Below, one piece after another: positions 901 through 16,081 of a stretch of 64,000 nucleotides of DNA (the stretch's first letter is position 1; each line of letters starts with the position of its first letter). The DNA lies in the NCBI RefSeq assembly GCF_023277115.1, contig NZ_JALQCS010000001.1, positions 496,001 through 560,000 of the forward strand. The letters are read 5' to 3'. A program made the position numbers and the translations under genes. The notes below the pieces were generated by a model. The model saw only the letters and a list, made by a program, of their open reading frames with translations. It was not told the origin of the DNA and ran no database searches. This DNA is from Acidithiobacillus acidisediminis (GTDB lineage: Bacteria; Pseudomonadota; Gammaproteobacteria; Acidithiobacillales; Acidithiobacillaceae).

Positions 901-1326
901 GGAGTGGACGCCCCCAAGAGATGTTGCGCCACCGAGGTGATCCCAATAGCGACAGCGGATGGCAGTTGGTGGCGCATCCTCGACACTCGCGCGGCAAATG
1001 TCAAACTCCAGCCATGGGAGCTGCCCCCTGATGTCTTGAGACGGCAGTCCGTTAGCAGTGTGTGGTGGGGCGTGCATCATGTATCGGGATCAAGCAGGTA
1101 TCGTGCCGCTGTTAGAATGGCCAAGAGGAGAACTAGCCTAGAGTCCTCGGTATGCTGGCTCTTTGACAGGGTATCCTTGGTGCGCGCGGTTTGGTGCCTG
1201 CCCCATGAAAGTGCATAATGCCACGCCATGGTGCAGTAGCGGACGGTTTGCTGCAGGCAGGGTGCGCCGGAACGCCAGTCGTCTCGTGTAGAGTTCCCGG
1301 GCTCAGCAGGCGACCCTTTCCTGATC

Positions 1327-1342
1327 TGGCACGGGTTATGCT
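1327..1342 (+). promoter_or_regulatory. Sigma-54-like -24/-12 promoter
   Basis: The sequence TGGCACG, four bases, then ATGCT matches the consensus TGGCACG-N4-TTGCW at all but one position. The essential GG (1328-1329) and GC (1340-1341) are exactly 12 bases apart. It would start transcription near 1353, about 120 bases before the substrate-binding protein gene. A perfect version of the same box stands before exbB at 13933. Confidence 0.5.
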
Positions 1343-1472: not shown

Positions 1473-3128
1473 TTGAAAAATTTTTGCCGCGTGATGGGAA
1501 TGGCTTTGAGTATGCCATTGGGGTTCCTGGGTGTTGCCACAGCTTCTGCGACGCCGATCCCCCATGGAGGGACTATTTACACGGTGCCGGGTGTCGGTAT
1601 AGCCCCGCCCGCGGCGGTAAACGGCTTCAATCCTCTACTCACCTCGTCGGCCTATGATAGTCAAGTGGAAGGTAATCTTTATGCGGGGTTACTGTGGATC
1701 AACCGGCGCTTTGCCATCAATTTCAACGAAAGCATTGCCAAGCAGATCATTGTGGGCCCGCATCACCGCAGCTTTACGGTCTTGTTGCACCATTTCTGGC
1801 GTTGGTCCGACGGCCAGCCGGTAACCACTGCGGATATCGCCTATACCTACCATATGATATTGAAGTTAGGACCTTTATACCCTGGCTATGATACCGGTGG
1901 AATCCCCAAGGAAATTAAGTCATTTCAAGTATTGAGTCCCTATGCATTTCGGATCGTGACTACTCGGCCGGTCAATCCGCAGTGGTTTGAGCTCAGTGGT
2001 CTGAGCCAGTTGACGCCATACCCCAAGCAGGCATGGTCAAAATATAGTGTTCAACAGCTCAACGACAATATGACCAATTTGAAATTTTTCAAGGTGGTGG
2101 ATGGGCCATTTCAACTGGAGTCTTTTCATCCGGGACGCTATGTCAGCATTGTTCCCAATCCACATTATTCTGGTCCTAATCCGCCCCATGTGGCACGGGT
2201 TGTTTTTCGCTTCTTGAATTCCAACGCCGGTGTGTTTTTTGCGCTCAAGCGTGGTGCCATACAATTAGGAAACTTGCCTAACCCGCTGTACCCCGCGCGA
2301 AAGCAGTTGACCAATTATCGACTGCATCTGGCAGGGCCGATCTGGGGTTTCAATTATCTCGGCTTCAACTTTGCCAATCCGCATATCGCTTTTATCAGAA
2401 ATGTCTTGGTTCGCCGCGCCATCATGCACGCGATTGATCAGGACCTAATGATCAAAGTCATTGCGTATGGCCACGGTAGTCGCGCTTATGGTCTGATTCC
2501 CACCCACCCCGATACCTTTCTCTCCCCTGAGGCGAAAGCCCTGTTGCGCAAAGGAGAATACGATCCCGCACGGGCAAAGCAACTACTGCGTGAGGCCGGA
2601 TGGCACCGGGGTCCGGACGGTATTCGCGAAAAAAATGGGCGGAAATTGGAATTCACGCTCTATATGCCACCGCAAATGGTGCGTGGCCCCACACTGCTCA
2701 CGCAGATGTTGGGCGCAGTGGGGATAGAGGTGCATTTACGGGAAAAGCCCTTCAATGAAGTCTATGCCGAGATGATCGATCCTCACAATACCCATTGGCA
2801 GGCGGTATACCTAGGCTGGAGCCAAAGCGCTTTCCCTACGGGGGGGTCCATCTTTCGCTGTGGCGGCGCACAGAACAGCTACCATTACTGCAATGCCGAG
2901 ATGGATCGCCTACAAGACGCCATACGGGTACACACGGGCCTCAAGGCGCTGTATATATATCAAAACTATTTTACGGAGCAGCAACCCGTTATTGTCCTGC
3001 CCGACTGGAATTTGTTCATCATGGCGGCAAAGAACATCCATGGCCTGCAACGTGCCCTACCGCCCTTGGGAGGCTTCAATCCGCAATTCCTGTGGATTGA
3101 TCCTGAAGCCAAAAAAACGAAGGAATGA
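1473..3128 (+). CDS. Periplasmic substrate-binding protein of a peptide-type ABC importer (family 5)
   Basis: The 551-residue product has a signal peptide ending in an AxA site (TASATP, near residue 27) and no lipobox cysteine, then a complete family-5 solute-binding domain. Typical elements are the WRWSDGQPVTTADI motif near residue 110 and YDPARAKQLLREAGW in the second half. It would capture oligopeptides or a similar ligand in the periplasm and deliver it to the permease encoded next. The start is TTG at 1473, supported by GGAG nine bases upstream; an ATG 21 bases later is the alternative. A paralogue lies at 9787-11439. It opens a run of eleven closely packed genes. Confidence 0.88.
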   Translation: MKNFCRVMGMALSMPLGFLGVATASATPIPHGGTIYTVPGVGIAPPAAVNGFNPLLTSSAYDSQVEGNLYAGLLWINRRFAINFNESIAKQIIVGPHHRSFTVLLHHFWRWSDGQPVTTADIAYTYHMILKLGPLYPGYDTGGIPKEIKSFQVLSPYAFRIVTTRPVNPQWFELSGLSQLTPYPKQAWSKYSVQQLNDNMTNLKFFKVVDGPFQLESFHPGRYVSIVPNPHYSGPNPPHVARVVFRFLNSNAGVFFALKRGAIQLGNLPNPLYPARKQLTNYRLHLAGPIWGFNYLGFNFANPHIAFIRNVLVRRAIMHAIDQDLMIKVIAYGHGSRAYGLIPTHPDTFLSPEAKALLRKGEYDPARAKQLLREAGWHRGPDGIREKNGRKLEFTLYMPPQMVRGPTLLTQMLGAVGIEVHLREKPFNEVYAEMIDPHNTHWQAVYLGWSQSAFPTGGSIFRCGGAQNSYHYCNAEMDRLQDAIRVHTGLKALYIYQNYFTEQQPVIVLPDWNLFIMAAKNIHGLQRALPPLGGFNPQFLWIDPEAKKTKE

Positions 3129-3132
3129 GCCT

Positions 3133-4095
3133 ATGATCTGGCGTATGATCTTGCGACGTCTGGGGACCTCAGTATTGTCATTATTTTTGTTGGTCACCAT
3201 TGTTTTTGCCCTGATTCACGCCACACCCGGCGGACCTGCTTACAGTATTCTGGGTATGCACGCCACACCCCAGGCGGTGGCGGCATTGAACAAGCAAATG
3301 GGTTTGGATCATCCGCTCTGGCAACAATACGCCGTGTGGTGGACCCACCTGTTTGAGGGCAATTTGGGATATTCCTTCACTCAACACGCGCCGGTTTCCT
3401 CTCTCATGGGCTCGTATCTGGAAAACTCCATTCTGCTCTATGTCCTGGCAACGGTGATTGCCATTTTCTTTTCCATATTCATTGGCATGTTCCAGGGTTA
3501 TTGGGCGGAGCGCACGCCGGGTCTGATCATTGGTGCTGGTCAGATCATCGTCTACTCCATCCCTGCCTTTTTTATCGGGGTCATGCTGATTCTGTTCTTT
3601 GCCATCGATGTGAGCTGGTTCCCGCCCGGCGGTATTGGGGGGGACATGAGCGCAAGTGGGCAAGCGGGCACCTTGAGTTATCTGCGGCACATGGTACTAC
3701 CTGCTGTCACCATTGCCTTACCTTTAACTGCTGGACTGTCACGTTACTTTGGCCATCAGGCGCGTGCTGAGTACCGGCAGGAATACGTCCGCACTGCTCG
3801 CGCTCGCGGAGTGCCGGCGTTACGGCTCGCGGTGCAGCATGTTTTGCGCAATGCCATCCGTCCATTGATCACCGTGATTGGGATGATGATCCCCGGCATT
3901 TTTGTGGGCGGTATCCTGACTGAGAGCGTGTTCAATTATCCGGGACTGGGCTGGTTACTGTGGCGCTCGGCCCTGGAACAAGACTATCCCACCTTGACGG
4001 CGATCGTGCTGCTGATCGGAGTGCTCACCATCCTGGGTAATCTGGCAGCGGACTTGACCAACAGTATCTTGGATGTGCGGGTGCGCTATGAGTAG
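3133..4095 (+). CDS. ABC importer permease, OppB/DppB type
   Basis: The product (320 residues) begins with the typical N-terminal membrane anchor (MIWRMILRRLGTS) and carries the periplasmic ATPGGPAYSILG region characteristic of OppB/DppB permeases. The cytoplasmic coupling loop reads EYVRTARARGVPALRLAVQH, the EAA-like motif that contacts the ATPases. It forms half of the transmembrane channel with the following DppC-type permease. The start ATG at 3133 has AAGGA eight bases upstream and lies four bases after the preceding stop, although the frame is open further upstream. Confidence 0.9.
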   Translation: MIWRMILRRLGTSVLSLFLLVTIVFALIHATPGGPAYSILGMHATPQAVAALNKQMGLDHPLWQQYAVWWTHLFEGNLGYSFTQHAPVSSLMGSYLENSILLYVLATVIAIFFSIFIGMFQGYWAERTPGLIIGAGQIIVYSIPAFFIGVMLILFFAIDVSWFPPGGIGGDMSASGQAGTLSYLRHMVLPAVTIALPLTAGLSRYFGHQARAEYRQEYVRTARARGVPALRLAVQHVLRNAIRPLITVIGMMIPGIFVGGILTESVFNYPGLGWLLWRSALEQDYPTLTAIVLLIGVLTILGNLAADLTNSILDVRVRYE

Positions 4096-4999
4096 TCATC
4101 CTACCGATGTGAGCTTGAGCAATAGTTTGGTGGCGCGGCCCATCCCGGGCATGTTTCGGCGTATCTGGGGCGACTCCTTGCGCTATTGGGTGGGCCAGTA
4201 TAGCCACCCCATGACGTGGATTGGTCTAGGGCTCTTCGCCTTGTTGCTGGCCTTCTCTTGGGTCGGTCCTTGGTTATATCCCGCTGATCCCCTGGCCATA
4301 CACGTCAATCACCTCTTGGTCGGGCCGTCCTGGGCCTATCCCATGGGAACCGATAACCTGGGGCGCAACCTCATGGCGCGGATGATGTCGGGTGGACGAG
4401 CAACCCTGGAGGTGGGCCTGCTGGGATCGGCCATCGCTATGGCGCTGGGAATTCTATTTGGCATGGCGGCGGCCATGAGCCCGCGCTGGCTGGACAAGGT
4501 GCTGATGCGCCTGTTGGATGCCATCCTGGCGTTGCCCGGCATTGTCCTGATGATTTTCTTTGCCGCTATTGTACCGCTGAATACCCTGAGCCTGATCCTG
4601 GTTTTGGGGGGGCTGTCTTGGCCTGGTTTGGCGCGTATCGTGCGTAATGAGGCGCTGGCCTACAAAGAGCGAGATTATGTCTTGGCGGCCCGGCAATTTG
4701 GTGCGAGTACCTTCTACATTGCGCGTACCCATCTGCTGCGTTCCATGCTGCCGATCCTGATCGTCAATGCGACCTTCATGGTGGCCGATCTGATTCTGGC
4801 CCTCTCCGGGCTTTCTTTTCTGGGTCTGGGTATCCAACCGCCCCACGCCTCTTGGGGTGGGCTGCTCAATGATGGCCTGCAGCTGGTCATCATTGGGCCA
4901 TGGTGGTTGATCGTCTTCCCCGGGGTTGCCATTTTCTTGGCCATCGTGGCGATGAATGTGCTGGGCCAGGGATTGTTGGCACGCCTGGAGGGTCGTTGA
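4088..4999 (+). CDS. ABC importer permease, OppC/DppC type
   Basis: The 303-residue membrane protein pairs with the preceding OppB-type permease. The N-terminal OppC-specific segment is followed by the periplasmic GTDNLGRNLMARMMSGGR motif typical of DppC/OppC proteins and by the coupling loop ERDYVLAARQFGASTFYIA. The start ATG at 4088 overlaps the end of the upstream gene by eight bases, implying translational coupling. The membrane-spanning C-terminal half contains the usual SFLGLGIQPPHASWG motif. Confidence 0.9.
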   Translation: MSSHPTDVSLSNSLVARPIPGMFRRIWGDSLRYWVGQYSHPMTWIGLGLFALLLAFSWVGPWLYPADPLAIHVNHLLVGPSWAYPMGTDNLGRNLMARMMSGGRATLEVGLLGSAIAMALGILFGMAAAMSPRWLDKVLMRLLDAILALPGIVLMIFFAAIVPLNTLSLILVLGGLSWPGLARIVRNEALAYKERDYVLAARQFGASTFYIARTHLLRSMLPILIVNATFMVADLILALSGLSFLGLGIQPPHASWGGLLNDGLQLVIIGPWWLIVFPGVAIFLAIVAMNVLGQGLLARLEGR

Positions 5000-5000
5000 G

Positions 5001-6017
5001 ATGGAGCAAAATCGATTGTCCGAGCGGGGCATGCGTACCATAGCCCAGGGTCTTGGGGCGCTGCACGTGGAAGATCTGACCGTAACCTTTGGCCGCGGCA
5101 AGAAGACGTTTCAGGTCATTGAGTCCCTCAACTTTTCCGTAGCGCCGGGGGAGACCCTGGGTTTGGTGGGGGAGTCGGGATCAGGTAAGTCCATGACCGC
5201 GGCAGCACTGTTGGGCTTGCTGCCCTGGGGCGGGCGGATCTCTCGCGGGTCCGTGCGCTTAGGGGATCAGGAGTTGACCCATCTATCTGCCAGGGCAATG
5301 CGGGAACTGCGCGGGCGGGAGGTGGGCATGATCTTCCAGAACCCTCTGTCGTCCCTCAATCCGAGCATGACCGTGGCGCAGCAGATTGCCGAGCCGTATC
5401 GCCTGTATCTCGGGGCGGATGCCCGGGCAGGACGTGCTCGTGCCTTGGAACTCTTGCAGGAGGTGGGGGTGCCCGATGCCGAACGCCGATTGGATGACTA
5501 TCCCCATCAGTTTTCAGGGGGGATGCGGCAGCGGGTGATGATTGCCATGGCCCTAGCGTGCAAGCCAAAGCTCCTGATTGCCGATGAGCCGACGACCGCC
5601 CTGGATGTCATCATTCAGGCGCAGATTTTGAAGTTGATTCGGCGCTTGCAGCGGGAGCACGGGATGGCCGTGATCTTCATCACCCATGATTTGTCTTTGG
5701 TCGCCGAATATGCGGATCAAGTCATGGTGCTGTATGCCGGCCGCACGGTGGAGCGTGGCCGCACCCCGGAGTTCTTTGCCAATCCTCGGCATCCCTACAG
5801 CCGCGCCTTGCTGAACTCCATCCCGAGACTCGCCAACGGCGATGCGCGTTTGAGCGATATCGACGGCCTGCCGCCCCGTCCTCAGGCCTTTCCTACCGGT
5901 TGTCGCTTTGCACCTCGCTGTACGTTACGGACGGAGGATTGTGAGCTCCGCTACCCCCCGGCCAGCGGCGAAGGCCACCAGTTCTTCTGTGTGCACCCCG
6001 TGGGAGGTGCCGCATGA
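5001..6017 (+). CDS. ABC importer ATPase, OppD/DppD type
   Basis: The 338-residue cytoplasmic ATPase contains Walker A (GESGSGKS, near residue 57), the signature FSGGMRQRV, Walker B followed by the catalytic Glu ([12 protein letters not shown]) and an H-loop (ITHDLSLV). Its C-terminus has the oligopeptide-transporter-specific cysteine cluster [14 protein letters not shown], which in some family members binds an iron-sulfur cluster. The ATG at 5001 follows the permease stop by one base. It hydrolyses ATP together with the following OppF-type ATPase to drive import. Confidence 0.9.
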
Positions 6018-7006
6018 GCGCTTGGCTGGAGGTGGAACATCTCGACGTGCGCTTTCCTCTGGGTGAAGGGGGGCTACTGCGAGAGAGTCAGGGCTATGTC
6101 CATGCACTCAGTGATGTGAGTCTGCACCTCGATCAAGGGGAAACCATTGGTTTGATTGGGGAATCCGGTTCGGGTAAAAGTACCCTGGGGCGCGCCATCC
6201 TCCATCTGGTGCGTCCCACGGCGGGGGCTGTGCACTTTGAGGGAGAGAATCTGACGGCGTTGAGCGAGGCGGCGATTCGTCCCTTTCGACTGCAGATGCA
6301 GATGGTATTTCAGGACCCCTATGATTCCATGAATCCGCGGATGACGGTGGGTCAGATCATCATGGAGCCGCTGAACCTGCAGCACATTGGTACGGCGCGT
6401 GGTCGTCGCAAGAAGGCCGAGGATCTACTGGAGCGTATGGGGCTGGATCGTCGGGCAATGAATCGCTACCCGGTACAGTATTCCGGCGGGCAGCGGCAGC
6501 GGATTGCCATTGCCCGTGCCTTGAGCACGGAGCCACGTCTTTTGGTGTTGGATGAGCCGACGTCGGGGCTCGATGTCTCGATGCAGGCGCGCATTCTGAA
6601 TTTGCTGAAAGATTTGCAAAGTGAGATGGGTCTGGGCTACGTCTTTATCAGTCACGATCTGGGAGCCGTATCCTATCTGGCCCAGCGTATTGCGGTGATG
6701 TATCTCGGGCGGATCGTGGAGTTGGCACCCACCCGAGTGCTTACGCAGCAACCCGCCCATCCCTATACGGTGTCTTTGATGGATGCCTTGCCGCCCATGG
6801 TTCGGCAAAACGACCAGGAACGCCTGCCACCGCCGAGTGGCGAGCCCCCGTCGCCAGTGCATCCCCCGGCGGGATGTGCCTTTCATACGCGTTGCCCACA
6901 CGTGGCCGCGCGCTGTAAGGAACTGCGCCCCCCCTTACAGGAACTGAGCGGTGGGCATTACGTTGCCTGTCATTTTCCATTGGGGGGCGTGGGGACGGCG
7001 ATTTGA
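6014..7006 (+). CDS. ABC importer ATPase, OppF/DppF type
   Basis: The second ATPase (330 residues) has Walker [10 protein letters not shown], signature YSGGQRQRI, Walker B LLVLDEPTSGLD and the C-terminal cysteine-containing oligopeptide-transporter tail (GCAFHTRCPHVAARC). Its ATG overlaps the preceding stop codon (ATGA). With the OppD-type partner it completes a five-part importer. The next gene, tldD, starts 25 bases downstream on the same strand. Confidence 0.9.
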   Translation: MSAWLEVEHLDVRFPLGEGGLLRESQGYVHALSDVSLHLDQGETIGLIGESGSGKSTLGRAILHLVRPTAGAVHFEGENLTALSEAAIRPFRLQMQMVFQDPYDSMNPRMTVGQIIMEPLNLQHIGTARGRRKKAEDLLERMGLDRRAMNRYPVQYSGGQRQRIAIARALSTEPRLLVLDEPTSGLDVSMQARILNLLKDLQSEMGLGYVFISHDLGAVSYLAQRIAVMYLGRIVELAPTRVLTQQPAHPYTVSLMDALPPMVRQNDQERLPPPSGEPPSPVHPPAGCAFHTRCPHVAARCKELRPPLQELSGGHYVACHFPLGGVGTAI

Positions 7007-7031
7007 TCCCGCGCACTACTGGAGTCTCATC

Positions 7032-8486
7032 ATGAATATTGTGGAACGTCCGTCTTTGGTCGCGCTTGCCGAGCGTGTTCTTGGCGAGCTGGGGGGCTTG
7101 GCCTGGTGGTCCCTGCTTTTGGAGGAGCGCGAAACCCTGCTGCTGCAGGTAGAGCGTGGTGTCGGCCTGGCCCCGTTTCGGTCGCGCGGCCGCAGTGCCC
7201 TGATTGGGGTCATGGCTCAGGGGAATGTGGCCTACGCCTCTGTTACGGATTTTTCCGAGTCAGCCATTCGTCAGGCGGTGGAGGCCGCAGTGCAGCGCGC
7301 CCAGTCTGCCGCGTCCGTGGCCTTGTACCATGCGCAGGACTGGCCAATGGCGACGGAATCTGGCGATTGGCACTCGGCTTTTGCGCAAGGCACACCTCTA
7401 TCCGTACAGGATGGCCTGCACCAGCTGCATGCGTTGGATACCGCGATGGCCCAGTCGCCCCAGGTGGTGGATAGATACGCCGGGCTGGAAACTCGGGCCA
7501 TCGATAGGCTCTTCTGGCACGCTGCGGGCGCACGGCAACGACAATACACGCACCTCTGCCTTCCGCGCTTGCGGGTTACGGTCAGTGACGGTCACGAGGT
7601 GCAAAGCCGTAGCTTCAGCCCGTTGGGCCAGGGGATTGCCAGCGCGGAGCTGCTCCAGCAACTCGGTTTTATTACGGAGACAGCGCAACGCTTGACGGTG
7701 GAGGCGCGGGAGCTGGTGGCCGCGCCCAATTGCCCCAGCGGCCCTTGGGATCTGATCCTGTCGCCAGGACAAATGGCGTTACAGATTCATGAGAGCATTG
7801 GGCACCCGCTGGAATTGGACCGGATTCTTGGTGATGAGCGCAATTATGCGGGCTGGAGTTTTTTGCAATTGGCGGACTTTGGCACTTTGCGCTATGGGAG
7901 TCCCTTACTGAATGTGGTCTTCGATCCTGCTGAGACGGGAGAGCTGGCAGCCTATGGCTTTGATGATGAGGGTAGCAAGGCGGAGCGCCACTATCTGATT
8001 CGGGACGGGGTCTTGCAGCGGCCCCTGGGCGGAGCTCGCTCGGCGGCACGCGCCAATATGCCAGCACTGGCTTGTGCGCGGGTTTGCGATCCCTTGCGGC
8101 CGCCCATCGATCGTATGGCCAATATCAATCTGGAACCCGGCAATCAGAGCTTTGCTGAGATCATCGCCAGCACGGAACGCGGGATTTGGATGGACGAGAA
8201 CCGATCTTGGTCCATCGATCAGCAGCGCGACAAGTTCCAGTTTGGTTGTGAGTGGGGGCGACTGGTGGAACAGGGAGAGATCAAAGGCTGGGTGAAAAAT
8301 CCGAATTATCGCGGCCGCACCCTGGCGTTCTGGCAGGCCTTGGATGCCGTCGGCGATCGGTCCACCTACGCCGTGTCGGGCTCCCCCTACTGTGGCAAGG
8401 GGGAGTTGAACCAGTCCATTACTGTGGGGCACGCCTCGCCCATCTGCCGCTTTCACGGCATTGAAGTCTTTGGGGGTGCGGCATGA
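7032..8486 (+). CDS. tldD: Metallopeptidase TldD
   Basis: The 484-residue product carries the TldD zinc-binding motif HESIGH (His253, Glu254, His258) and the conserved C-terminal CGKGELNQSITVG block. TldD forms a heterodimer with TldE that degrades or trims unstructured and modified peptides in the cytoplasm; in E. coli the pair matures microcin B17 and degrades the CcdA antidote. The ATG at 7032 is chosen over the longer open frame because it starts the conserved domain and follows oppF. The placement directly behind a peptide importer suggests that imported peptides are its substrates. Confidence 0.93.
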   Translation: MNIVERPSLVALAERVLGELGGLAWWSLLLEERETLLLQVERGVGLAPFRSRGRSALIGVMAQGNVAYASVTDFSESAIRQAVEAAVQRAQSAASVALYHAQDWPMATESGDWHSAFAQGTPLSVQDGLHQLHALDTAMAQSPQVVDRYAGLETRAIDRLFWHAAGARQRQYTHLCLPRLRVTVSDGHEVQSRSFSPLGQGIASAELLQQLGFITETAQRLTVEARELVAAPNCPSGPWDLILSPGQMALQIHESIGHPLELDRILGDERNYAGWSFLQLADFGTLRYGSPLLNVVFDPAETGELAAYGFDDEGSKAERHYLIRDGVLQRPLGGARSAARANMPALACARVCDPLRPPIDRMANINLEPGNQSFAEIIASTERGIWMDENRSWSIDQQRDKFQFGCEWGRLVEQGEIKGWVKNPNYRGRTLAFWQALDAVGDRSTYAVSGSPYCGKGELNQSITVGHASPICRFHGIEVFGGAA

Positions 8487-9790
8487 TGACGGAAGTGGAG
8501 GGCTGGGTCGCGAGGCTTCCAGATCAACTGGCCCAGTTGGCAGGAATAGACGAGCTGTTATTTGCCGGGGTCTACGCCGAACGCACGGATTACGCGCGGA
8601 TCAGTAAGTCCCGAGTGAATCAGAGCGGTATGGTGGACCAGCGGGACCTGTCCTTGACCTTGATCCAGGGGCAACGTCAGACCCGCATGGATATCACGGC
8701 GGCATGGCCGTCGATGGCCGAGTTGTCGCAATGGGTCGCCCAGTTACGCGATGACTTGAGGCAGGTTCCTGAGGACCCCTGGCTCAACCCCAGCCAAGAA
8801 GCGCGGCAGGCCCGGGGTGGAGACTACGGTTCGTCGGTGGATTTTAATGCCATGGTTGCGGCCTTGTGTGAAGCGGGGGCCTCCCAGGACTTGGTGGGGA
8901 TCGTGACCGGTGGTCCGCAGTATTACGCCGTGTGCAGTAGCATCGGCCATCGTCTGGAGTTTTTAGGCGGCGGCAGCATGGTGGATCTCAGCAGCTTTGA
9001 CCCAGATAACAATGCCAGCAAGGCACTACTAGCCAACCCGACGCCAGCCCAGTTGCATGCCCTGCCCAGGCAGATGCACAAGCAATTGCAAGCCCTGCAG
9101 CTTCCGGTCCAGACCTTGCGGCCCGATGCCTACCGCGCGTGGCTGGCCCCCGAGGCGTTGGCGGAGTTGTGGGGTGTCTTGAGCTGGCAGGGCTTTACGG
9201 TGGAAATGCTGCGGAGTGGTATGAGTCCTCTGCGTCTCTTGTATAGCGGGGAGCGTCAGCTCCATGCAGACGTCTCTCTCTGGGAAGATCGTGCGGGCCT
9301 GGGACTGCCCACCTTCACCCACGATGGCCATCCGTTGCCGGGGGCCATTCCCCTGATCCAAAACGGCAAGGCGCATGATGGCTTGGCGGACTCCCGTGCC
9401 GCCAAGGAATTTGGCGTCGCCATCAACGGCTCGGGGTATGCCGCCGCTCTGTCCATGGGTCCGGGAACGTTGCCCGACGGCGATGTGCTCGAGGCGATCG
9501 GCACGGGCCTGTATTTGGGCCATCTCTGGTATGCCAACGTGTCCGATCCCGCCAGTTGTCGGGTGACGGCCATGACCCGTTATGATTGCTTTTGGGTCGA
9601 AGGCGGTCGAATTGTTGGACCGGTTGCCCCGTCGCGCATTGATTCCAGCCTCTTTCAACTGCTGGGTGAGGATTTGCTGGCCTTGGGTCAGGATTTGCAT
9701 CGGCTCCCCGAACGTCATACCTATGGTCAACGCGCCTGGGGCGGGATGCGCCTGCCTGGGGCCTTGACGCGTGTCCAGGTGACTTTGTGA
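8483..9790 (+). CDS. tldE: TldE/PmbA, partner of TldD
   Basis: This 435-residue protein is the non-metal-binding partner of TldD; it lacks an HExxxH motif, as is normal for TldE/PmbA. The C-terminal half has the family pattern including GVAINGSGYAAALSMGPG and LGHLWYANVSDPASCRVT. The ATG overlaps the tldD stop by four bases, as expected for obligate partners. TldE is needed for access of peptide substrates to the heterodimer chamber. Confidence 0.92.
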   Translation: MMTEVEGWVARLPDQLAQLAGIDELLFAGVYAERTDYARISKSRVNQSGMVDQRDLSLTLIQGQRQTRMDITAAWPSMAELSQWVAQLRDDLRQVPEDPWLNPSQEARQARGGDYGSSVDFNAMVAALCEAGASQDLVGIVTGGPQYYAVCSSIGHRLEFLGGGSMVDLSSFDPDNNASKALLANPTPAQLHALPRQMHKQLQALQLPVQTLRPDAYRAWLAPEALAELWGVLSWQGFTVEMLRSGMSPLRLLYSGERQLHADVSLWEDRAGLGLPTFTHDGHPLPGAIPLIQNGKAHDGLADSRAAKEFGVAINGSGYAAALSMGPGTLPDGDVLEAIGTGLYLGHLWYANVSDPASCRVTAMTRYDCFWVEGGRIVGPVAPSRIDSSLFQLLGEDLLALGQDLHRLPERHTYGQRAWGGMRLPGALTRVQVTL

Positions 9791-13781: not shown

Positions 13782-13876
13782 AAATCAGTTGTTCCATGTT
13801 CTACCGAGGTCGCCGTAGATTTTCGGCATGATAGAAGACCCGGAAACCTCCTCCTGTTCATTTTTGGTTCAATGCC

Positions 13877-13891
13877 GCACCTAATTGGTGC
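13877..13891 (+). promoter_or_regulatory. Inverted repeat upstream of the sigma-54 promoter
   Basis: GCACC-TAATT-GGTGC is a perfect 5-bp dyad. It ends 42 bases upstream of the -24 element of the exbB promoter and is a candidate activator-binding site. A similar TGCC...GGTGCA arrangement occurs at 1219-1235 before the importer operon. Confidence 0.4.
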
Positions 13892-13932
13892 ATGAAGTAA
13901 GGGATGGTTGCGAGGATTGCTGGCAGGCGTGG

Positions 13933-13948
13933 TGGCACGGTGATTGCT
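13933..13948 (+). promoter_or_regulatory. Sigma-54 -24/-12 promoter of exbB-exbD-tonB
   Basis: TGGCACG-GTGA-TTGCT fits the sigma-54 consensus at every defined position, with GG at 13934-13935 and GC at 13946-13947. Transcription would start near 13959, about 34 bases before the exbB start codon. Such promoters need RpoN and an AAA+ activator. Confidence 0.75.
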
Positions 13949-13992
13949 CAACGGAAAGCGGTACGGCCTGATTCGACATGGAAGGGAATCGC

Positions 13993-14700
13993 ATGACATT
14001 TGCGTACATTGTTCATTTAGCAAACTACTCGGACGGAGTTTTGTATCTTCTGATGGCCCTGCTCGCCATTGAGCTTGCGGTGATCTTTGATCGCTTCTGG
14101 TTTTTGCGCAACGCAATGGCGAAGGGAAGAAAGATCTTATGGTTGGTCTCGAACCGGGGTAAGCTGCGGCGGCCCGATCTGGAAGAGCTTGCCGATATGG
14201 CAAAGGGTTTACCGGAAGAGTCCTTGGTTGGCGTAGCACTGCGTCACTTCAATCTGGTTCATCATTATGGCAGCGCGCGCGGTGAGGCCTTTGCCAATCG
14301 TTTGGACGAAGCCATCTTCCTGACCACCCCCAGTCTGGATAAGCGCCTGTGGGTACTGGATACGATTGTTACCTTGGCACCGCTGCTGGGACTCTTTGGC
14401 ACGATTCTGGGAATGTTTCATGCTTTCAGTATCTTGGCTACACCGGATCACGCGCCAAGCTCTGTTACCGGGGGTGTGGCGGATGCATTGATTGCGACAG
14501 CATCAGGGCTTGCCATCGCCATGATTGGATTGATCAGCTTCAATGCCTTCAACAACGCTATCGATAAGACGATCTTTCAGTTGGAGTCGCTCAAAGTCGT
14601 GTTGATGAACCGTCTGGATGGTGCCCCGGTCGTGTTGGAAGAGTCAGCGCCCAGTTCAGCGAATGCGCACCCCATCGCAGAAACGGCTGCGCACGCGTAA
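13993..14700 (+). CDS. exbB: ExbB/TolQ-type proton channel subunit
   Basis: The 235-residue inner-membrane protein has one N-terminal helix, a long cytoplasmic loop and two further helices with the MotA/TolQ/ExbB pattern (LAPLLGLFGTILGM and ALIATASGLAIAMIG). With ExbD it uses the proton gradient to energise TonB. The ATG at 13993 is preferred over one at 13978 because AAGGGA lies six bases upstream. It opens a three-gene operon preceded by a sigma-54 box. Confidence 0.9.
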   Translation: MTFAYIVHLANYSDGVLYLLMALLAIELAVIFDRFWFLRNAMAKGRKILWLVSNRGKLRRPDLEELADMAKGLPEESLVGVALRHFNLVHHYGSARGEAFANRLDEAIFLTTPSLDKRLWVLDTIVTLAPLLGLFGTILGMFHAFSILATPDHAPSSVTGGVADALIATASGLAIAMIGLISFNAFNNAIDKTIFQLESLKVVLMNRLDGAPVVLEESAPSSANAHPIAETAAHA

Positions 14701-14711
14701 GGAGAGATCGT

Positions 14712-15110
14712 ATGCTTCCGACCCGTCGACCCCGCAAGAAAGGCCGGGTAGAAATTATCCCGATGATCGACGTCATGCTGTTTTTGCTGGTGTTCTTCAT
14801 CATGATCACGCTCCAGATGATCACCGATAAGGGGCTCAAATTACAGCTTCCCAGCTCCAGCCAGGCGAAGGAGCTGCCGCATCCCCACTTTGTACTGAAT
14901 ATCCTCAAAGATGGGGCGGTAGAGGTAAAGGGTAAGAAAATGGATTTGTCGGGATTGACTGGTTTCCTATCCGCGGATGGAGACGTGGCCCATACCCAGG
15001 TCACCATTGCCGCTGACAAATTGGTGCCCTTCAAAGACTTTGTGCATGTGATGGATGCCTGTCAGAAGGCGGGCGTAACGGCCATCGGCATCGCCACGAA
15101 AGAAACGTGA
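14712..15110 (+). CDS. exbD: ExbD/TolR-type protein
   Basis: The 132-residue product has a basic N-terminus, a single membrane helix with the functional aspartate (PMIDVMLFLLVFF, Asp20) and a periplasmic ExbD/TolR domain. It forms the proton-conducting complex with ExbB. It begins 11 bases after exbB and its stop overlaps the region read by the tonB frame. Confidence 0.9.
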   Translation: MLPTRRPRKKGRVEIIPMIDVMLFLLVFFIMITLQMITDKGLKLQLPSSSQAKELPHPHFVLNILKDGAVEVKGKKMDLSGLTGFLSADGDVAHTQVTIAADKLVPFKDFVHVMDACQKAGVTAIGIATKET

Positions 15111-15142
15111 TCCGATCCCAGGCCCTTGAGGAGAATCACGCA

Positions 15143-15898
15143 ATGGCTAGTGCAGTCGTGAACACCATTCTGCCGCCGGATCCCGAGCAAGGGAGTCATC
15201 GTTTTGCTACCGCCCTGATTGCTGGGGTTATCGTCGAGATGGCTTTGATTGGTGCCTTGGTCTGGTATGGAGAGACCCATCCCGCGCATCCTGTTCCGCC
15301 GCCTAAGAAACACGTCATGGCGGTACAAATGGTGACGCTTCCCCCGCCTCCGAAGGTGGTTCCGAAGCCGGTCGTCAAACCGACCCCACCGAAACCGATG
15401 CCTCCCAAGCCGGTTATCCATCATACACCTCCGCCCCCACCGGCCCCGCACCCCAAGATGGTGGTACCCCCGAAGCCGGTACCGACCCCGCCGGCGCCAC
15501 CGGTGAAGATGGCTCCACCGCCTAAACCGGTACTGCCGCCCAAGCCGGCAACTCCTCCGGCGCCACCACCGCCACCGCCGTTATCGGCGGCAGAGCGGGT
15601 GGACCTGATGGGGCAGTATGTAGCGGAACTGCGTCCGCTCATTCAGAACCAGCTGCATGTCCCTGCCGAATTGCGCGCCATGGGACTCTCTGGGACAGCG
15701 ACGGTGGAGTTTGAGGTATCACCCAGCGGTCAGGTGTTGTGGGCCAAGGTGATCAAGCCGAGCCCGTTGGGTGCGGTGAACCGGGCTGCCGTGGCAGCGG
15801 TCAAGAGCGGAAACTTCCCGGCGTTTCTGAAAAAGATGCCAAAACAGAATACGGTATTCGAGATCCCTATCGAGGTCGGTGCAGACTCGGGGTCGTAA
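15143..15898 (+). CDS. tonB: TonB energy transducer
   Basis: The 251-residue protein has a membrane anchor (about residues 20-38), a long periplasmic proline/lysine-rich spacer (about residues 48-150) and a C-terminal TonB domain with TATVEFEVSPSGQV and the AVNRAAVAAVKSG helix. It would span the periplasm to open TonB-dependent outer-membrane receptors. The ATG at 15143 has GAGGAG nine bases upstream; a GTG at 15107 in the same frame is less likely. No TonB-dependent receptor gene occurs in the window. Confidence 0.9.
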   Translation: MASAVVNTILPPDPEQGSHRFATALIAGVIVEMALIGALVWYGETHPAHPVPPPKKHVMAVQMVTLPPPPKVVPKPVVKPTPPKPMPPKPVIHHTPPPPPAPHPKMVVPPKPVPTPPAPPVKMAPPPKPVLPPKPATPPAPPPPPPLSAAERVDLMGQYVAELRPLIQNQLHVPAELRAMGLSGTATVEFEVSPSGQVLWAKVIKPSPLGAVNRAAVAAVKSGNFPAFLKKMPKQNTVFEIPIEVGADSGS

Positions 15899-15916
15899 CC
15901 TGCTAAGAGGTGATGT

Positions 15917-16081
15917 ATGAGTGTCCTGCAAACGGTGGTTTGGGGAACAGCATTCACAAAGCTGAAAAGAGGTGCTCCCAGAATGCGTAGTTATAGTATG
16001 AAACCCAGGGGGCCGGTTCCTCGCGAATATGACCGAAACGGTTCGATCGCGTACTATGAGGGAATCGGCGAATCAAGATGA
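15917..16081 (+). CDS. Possible 54-residue protein downstream of tonB
   Basis: An ATG at 15917, preceded by AGAGGTG, opens a 54-codon frame 18 bases after tonB. The product is basic in its middle and ends with a charged, tyrosine-containing tail; no family is recognised. It overlaps the 3' end of the convergent GNAT-like gene by nine bases. The good ribosome site and spacing argue for a real gene, the absence of recognised similarity against. Confidence 0.3.
   Translation: MSVLQTVVWGTAFTKLKRGAPRMRSYSMKPRGPVPREYDRNGSIAYYEGIGESR

Follow-up and report, generated by a model that had tools for sequence, protein, structure and literature searches.

The window analysed here, a stretch of 64,000 nucleotides from Acidithiobacillus acidisediminis (positions 496,001 to 560,000 of contig NZ_JALQCS010000001.1, written C1 below), carries three neighbouring genes, read in the same direction, for proteins with MotA_ExbB, ExbD and TonB_C domains and thus an ExbB-ExbD-TonB system, the ExbB of which has its nearest named relative in Acidithiobacillus sp. 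YTS05 (94% identity). The block that holds these genes starts 211 bases past a co-directional gene, with a peptide-transport operon upstream, and the features considered below are as follows.

1199..1235, + strand: two NtrC-like boxes, TGCCCCATGAAAGTGCA at 1199-1215 (11/12) and TGCCACGCCATGGTGCA at 1219-1235 (10/12), before the peptide-transport operon
1327..1342, + strand: sigma-54-like promoter TGGCACGGGTTATGCT (11/12), before the SBP_bac_5 gene and oligopeptide ABC transporter
1473..9790, + strand: genes for SBP_bac_5, two permeases, two oligopeptide ATPases and two PmbA/TldD metallopeptidases, upstream of exbB
13856..15920, + strand: duplicated block (promoter and exbB-exbD-tonB), 99.3% identical to a copy at C1:1089.5-1092.7 kb
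13876..13892, + strand: NtrC-type box CGCACCTAATTGGTGCA, that is CGCACC-TAATT-GGTGCA, 11/12 to TGCACYN5RGTGCA
13933..13948, + strand: sigma-54 -24/-12 promoter TGGCACGGTGATTGCT, 12/12 consensus positions
13959, + strand: predicted transcription start, about 12 bases past the GC element, from sigma-54 promoter geometry
13978, + strand: alternative upstream start of exbB, with Shine-Dalgarno-like GGAAGGGAA at 13980-13988
13993..14700, + strand: exbB (Pfam MotA_ExbB, E 7.5e-25)
14712..15110, + strand: exbD (Pfam ExbD, E 1.1e-29)
15143..15898, + strand: tonB (Pfam TonB_C, E 6.2e-10), with an upstream alternative start at 15107

To evaluate the promoter, we scored TGGCACGGTGATTGCT, which lies 44 bases upstream of the likely exbB start, against TGGCACG-N4-TTGCW, which we take to be the sigma-54 consensus, and found that it matched at all 12 positions with the GG-N10-GC core included, so that the full consensus match before exbB-exbD-tonB asserted in the original prediction stands. 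In sigma-54 promoters the start site lies some 12 bases downstream of the GC, and with the first T of the word set, as we presume, at -26, transcription would start near 13959. Matches with at most two mismatches occurred in the window at a number close to chance (8 observed vs 7.25 expected), so that only the perfect match deserves attention here. Genome-wide, the strict word TGGCAYGNNNNTTGCW gave 12 matches and the reversed control pattern 0, while a looser word gave 48 vs 19 in the control, such that weaker sigma-54-like sites are partly products of chance. After dinucleotide shuffling of the local upstream DNA, the sigma-54 score was reached in 0/1000 shuffles and the score of the dyad described below in 1/1000. 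A scan for a Fur-like box upstream of exbB, using what we take to be the Fur consensus, reached 9/19 at best, and Fur control of the operon was rejected on the grounds that no upstream site scored above this value.

Also borne out was the symmetric GCACC-N5-GGTGC element said to lie upstream of the promoter, which is present at 13877-13891 (GCACC-TAATT-GGTGC) with 41 bases between it and the sigma-54 word, in agreement with the predicted spacing. Extended by one further base on either side, the dyad becomes the NtrC-type box, which has its centre at about -75 relative to the predicted start and fits the NtrC-box published as TGCACCAnnnTGGTGCA (PMC8743547); in scoring we chose Y/R for the inner positions. 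Alone the dyad is not rare, as the genome contains GCACC-N3..7-GGTGC 46 times vs 26 for the control, and its meaning therefore derives from position and conservation. A terminator was also considered for the dyad and dropped by eye, there being no T run after it.

Turning to the proteins that such a promoter would need, the genome (2.81 Mb in four contigs) encodes one RpoN together with 13 strong and three weak matches to sigma-54 activator proteins, and hence both the sigma factor and at least one enhancer-binding protein. Among these activators NtrC was identified by TIGR01818 (714 bits vs a cut-off of 558.6), and it is adjoined by NtrB (NF008293, above cut-off). As a positive control, we examined the ntrBC, P-II (glnK) and glnA promoters of the same genome, which carry sigma-54 sites of 9-10/12 along with NtrC-like boxes of 9-10/12, and the -57 box offset of exbB is common to glnA (9/12), ntrBC (10/12) and an omega-aminotransferase gene (10/12). 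Boxes of the dyad type were sought near the other sigma-54 sites of the genome, as had been suggested at the outset, and an NtrC box of at least 10/12 was found within 140 bases upstream of 9/48 sigma-54-like sites vs 1/48 control stretches. These nine paired sites precede two exbB copies, the TonB-dependent receptor genes TBDR1 (1108.8 kb) and TBDR3 (490 kb), two BBP2 porin genes, a divergent pair in the window with shared boxes, and a CP_ATPgrasp gene. Sigma-54/NtrC pairs also occur before genes without a known nitrogen role (C1:1085050, 1186532 and 1193235), so some pairs are due to chance and the pair alone is no proof of function. Because the dyad lies within an NtrC-box, the AAA+ activator left unnamed in the original prediction is, judging from sequence, most likely NtrC, with nitrogen limitation as the signal.

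Several of the paired sites lie before genes with their own context. The divergent sigma-54-like sites at window positions 1093-1342 have two NtrC-like boxes in common, and the genes at 1473..9790 possibly form a nitrogen-controlled peptide-uptake operon. The two BBP2-type porin genes (L136:9824-11157 on contig C3, and L171 at C1:1177.4 kb) have sigma-54-like sites and NtrC-like boxes and perhaps encode nitrogen-controlled outer-membrane channels. Near ntrBC, CP_ATPgrasp, Alpha-E and transglutaminase/DUF2126 genes (L137:1599-7498, C1:1179.6-1185.5 kb) follow a sigma-54-like site and an NtrC-like box.

We then surveyed exbB across 28 other genomes of the family, where full-length matches fell into groups of 81-93% identity (13 genomes), 70-75% and at most 59%. 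A sigma-54 site of at least 9/12 together with an NtrC box of at least 10/12 preceded exbB in all 13 orthologues at 81-93% identity (a count over 28 genomes that ignores kinship), in 2/7 paralogues at 70-75% (one of the seven belonging to this genome), and in 0/16 paralogues at or below 59%, these last being chosen from the loci at hand as a subset of those listed, with partial matches left out. Taken one at a time, the orthologues whose sigma-54 site scores 9/12 give weak evidence (P by shuffling as high as 0.13). The two paralogues that bear the pair, L255 and L258 (genomes G022 and G009; 74% identity), show that it is not confined to this operon, and nitrogen may control a second TonB set in some of the relatives. 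In a set of named genomes, sigma-54 sites of at least 9/12 preceded 15/15 operon loci (L038, with only 57 bases of upstream sequence, was left out of the count) and NtrC boxes of at least 10/12 preceded 11/15, while both elements were found in 0/13 outgroup loci and 2/4 paralogues. The four loci lacking a clear box are L030, L032, L034 and L036, all from metagenome-assembled genomes (MAGs) and 67-69% identical, which keep sigma-54 sites of 11/12 with a best box of 9/12, so that another activator may serve there. Since the 11 loci with boxes are the same as 11 of the 13 orthologues, the two counts make up one body of evidence, namely 13 genomes plus the four MAG loci. The site before exbB is thus a predicted promoter that is conserved and true to the sigma-54 type, and the presence of both elements in 13/13 orthologues strongly supports the earlier suggestion of sigma-54 control through a specific AAA+ activator.

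Promoter and genes are present twice in this genome. Over 1,903 bases the window copy and the C1:1089 kb copy are 99.3% identical with 14 differences, of which one falls in the promoter region, beside the NtrC box but not within it; the two copies have identical promoter elements. At C1:1089 kb, exbB is split by an element that we call IS630-like on account of its DDE_3 transposase and TA duplication. The exbB, exbD and tonB frames of the window are all open and, the other exbB being split, the window exbB is the only intact one of the group at or above 81% identity in this genome. The IS630-like element occupies L134 from about 4642 to 5748 (C1:1089.6-1090.7 kb), inside the second exbB of the purine locus, and may affect the purine genes downstream as well. 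A plasmid-borne duplicate was also considered and dropped, as megablast against a plasmid collection (from which the records nearest this genome are possibly absent) gave no match.

Evaluating the gene context further, we found a nucleobase permease of the NCS1 family after exbB-exbD-tonB in 14/15 orthologous loci, the fifteenth breaking off at a contig end. A guanine deaminase-like gene comes next in 9/15, and the other six are cut or of the MAG type. In this genome the purine locus at 1089-1103 kb holds genes for a permease, a guanine deaminase-like protein, adenosine deaminase, a purine nucleoside permease family protein, xanthine dehydrogenase-like subunits, an XdhC-like protein and an AtzD-type protein, and the stretch at 1108-1122 kb holds TBDR1, omega-aminotransferase, carbon-nitrogen hydrolase, PreA, dihydropyrimidinase, NCS1 permeases and cytidine deaminase. 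Matches to adenosine deaminase, PreA, dihydropyrimidinase, cytidine deaminase, omega-aminotransferase and AtzD exceed their family cut-offs; those to guanine deaminase, xanthine dehydrogenase and XdhC, though the best of their kind, fall short of the NCBIfam ones. The AtzD/TrzD gene, of the cyanuric-acid hydrolase type, lies at L134:16461-17540 within the purine-catabolic cluster.

To link the module to possible receptors, we compared the six TonB-dependent receptors that a family search finds in the genome, which revealed the promoter pair before TBDR1 and TBDR3 and not before the other four. TBDR1 adjoins pyrimidine-catabolic genes, and its orthologues (74-90% identity) are present in exactly the 13/28 genomes that have the exbB orthologue and absent from the other 15, with the two genes 1.8-18.1 kb apart on the same contig in 10/13 genomes, as worked out by hand. 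The probability of this co-occurrence by chance would be 2.7e-8 for independent genomes, a figure that overstates the case because the genomes are not independent. Both promoter elements precede TBDR1 in 10/13 cases, with a sigma-54 site and NtrC boxes that reach 9/12 in two more and neither element in one (L230 of genome G020, cut at a contig edge, is excluded), vs 1/14 other receptors (of 16 with loci, of 26 listed). The link that makes TBDR1 the candidate cognate receptor of ExbB-ExbD-TonB is this co-occurrence and not a direct pairing. Sigma-54 sites of at least 9/12 precede 9/11 TBDR3 orthologues and both elements precede 2/11; in L249-L252, L254 and L256 the sigma-54 site scores 11/12 (for example TGGCACAACAGTTGCT) and no NtrC box reaches 10/12, and TBDR3 may be controlled by some other activator. 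TBDR1 resembles haem/protein and siderophore receptor families weakly and below cut-offs. A search for solved-structure relatives gave one weak match for TBDR1 (E 0.0017) and none for TBDR3, and an AlphaFold model of TBDR1 built from 11 sequences was unusable (mean pLDDT 29.4). Directly upstream of the window, at L133:9479-16852 (C1:487-495 kb), paralogous genes in the order tonB-exbB-exbD lie together with TBDR3 and genes for succinylarginine dihydrolase (AstB) and an AstA-like protein. This second TonB set adjoins nitrogen catabolism, and a sigma-54/NtrC pair was not found before its tonB.

From these observations we consider it probable that an NtrC-activated sigma-54 promoter drives the TonB module and that the receptors bring in organic nitrogen, most likely purine- or pyrimidine-related. 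The evidence for this comes from sequence (the RpoN, NtrB and NtrC genes, the promoter elements and their conservation, the operon context, the receptor co-occurrence and the duplication), and from it we infer NtrC binding, nitrogen induction and the substrate. When nitrogen is short, NtrB would phosphorylate NtrC, which would bind the box at 13876-13892 and loop to sigma-54 RNA polymerase at 13933-13948 and so drive exbB-exbD-tonB. The ExbB-ExbD-TonB motor would then power one or more outer-membrane receptors of the same regulon, TBDR1 first, the putative purine- or pyrimidine-related compounds would be imported, and NCS1 permeases and catabolic enzymes would yield ammonium from them. More tentatively, we propose that this is a TonB-dependent route dedicated to organic nitrogen, in which TBDR1, perhaps with other receptors, would carry nucleobases, nucleosides or larger compounds derived from nucleic acids actively across the outer membrane, powered by this ExbB-ExbD-TonB, with receptor, motor, permease and enzymes forming one NtrC/sigma-54 regulon.

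The conserved box bears on which activator is at work, be it NtrC itself, a different enhancer-binding protein whose box is similar (NtrX, for instance) or a combination of several. There are 13 strong activator proteins in the genome from which to choose, NtrX has been inferred to share the regulatory interactions of NtrC (PMC12194929), and sigma-54 sites are kept without a clear box in the four MAG orthologues and appear without the pair in most TBDR3 orthologues (9/11 vs 2/11); however, the exbB box fits the published NtrC-box and is found again at this genome's glnA, P-II and ntrBC promoters and in 13/13 family orthologues, which makes a different activator quite improbable. The duplication likewise raises the possibility that the window copy is a recent duplicate without a role of its own, its genes silent or read through from the peptide operon upstream, as its near identity with the C1:1089 kb copy and its position 211 bases past a co-directional gene might suggest. 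Its open frames, its promoter elements unchanged between the copies and the splitting of the other exbB, which leaves this one as the sole intact copy, argue against that reading, which we regard as very doubtful.

What the module transports is a separate matter, and it could serve iron or another metal, for example in supplying molybdenum enzymes, and merely be co-expressed under nitrogen limitation. Iron uptake is the heading under which A. ferrooxidans TonB systems have been described (PMC2621215), and the weak family matches of the receptors are to haem and siderophore types, but the best Fur-like site reached only 9/19, the operon of the relatives extends into genes for a nucleobase permease and a guanine deaminase-like protein, and TBDR1 adjoins pyrimidine catabolism, so that we think a metal role unlikely and organic nitrogen the better reading.

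Organic nitrogen uptake through an NtrC-activated TonB module would most likely represent two known kinds of system in a new combination. The NtrC/sigma-54 nitrogen regulon (core glnA, amtB, glnBK and ntrBC, with taxon-specific extensions; PMC5343134) pairs a sigma-54 consensus with a 17-bp NtrC box as here, and the box offset at exbB is that of glnA and ntrBC in this genome; the target, however, is an outer-membrane energy-transduction operon, whereas genes named in sections of PMC5343134 on NtrC concern ammonium, urea, nitrate and amides and not TonB. Comparative genomics has predicted TonB-dependent receptors in the HypR and HutC amino-acid catabolic regulons and, in the same sections of that source, not in that of NtrC (PMC5343134), so that receptors for nitrogen-containing nutrients within a catabolic regulon are a likeness; yet HypR and HutC are local, one-pathway regulators with receptors, and here NtrC/sigma-54 is associated with the exbB-exbD-tonB motor. 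The Fur-controlled ExbB-ExbD-TonB systems for iron have the same three proteins in the same order, but the operon described here has a sigma-54/NtrC promoter without a Fur-like box and is joined in relatives to a nucleobase-catabolic operon. For Xylella fastidiosa, a sigma-54 site has also been predicted upstream of exbB (PMC3224663), and in Flavobacteriia TonB genes are reportedly enriched in sigma-54 sites, with the regulation called unconfirmed (PMC12316311); both resemble our case in placing sigma-54 before exbB or TonB genes and are, as given there, predictions without an assigned activator. Within the same bacterial class, an NtrC regulon with conserved NtrB/NtrC has been predicted for Acidithiobacillia from a site scan limited to selected reference genes (PMC12194929), in the main text of which the words TonB, exbB, nucleobase and purine do not appear. 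Titles and abstracts of the matches listed in our literature search held no link between NtrC and exbB-exbD-tonB in a nucleobase operon.

The TonB systems of A. ferrooxidans have been filed under iron (PMC2621215) although their hosts live in iron-rich acid, and the promoter, its conservation and the gene context described here agree on nitrogen and not iron. If this reading is true, it would give such bacteria a reason to keep TonB systems, would add outer-membrane energy transduction to the NtrC regulon, and would offer a receptor with a directly testable substrate. It would also bear on biomining, where ammonia has been described as growth-limiting (PMC3826726).
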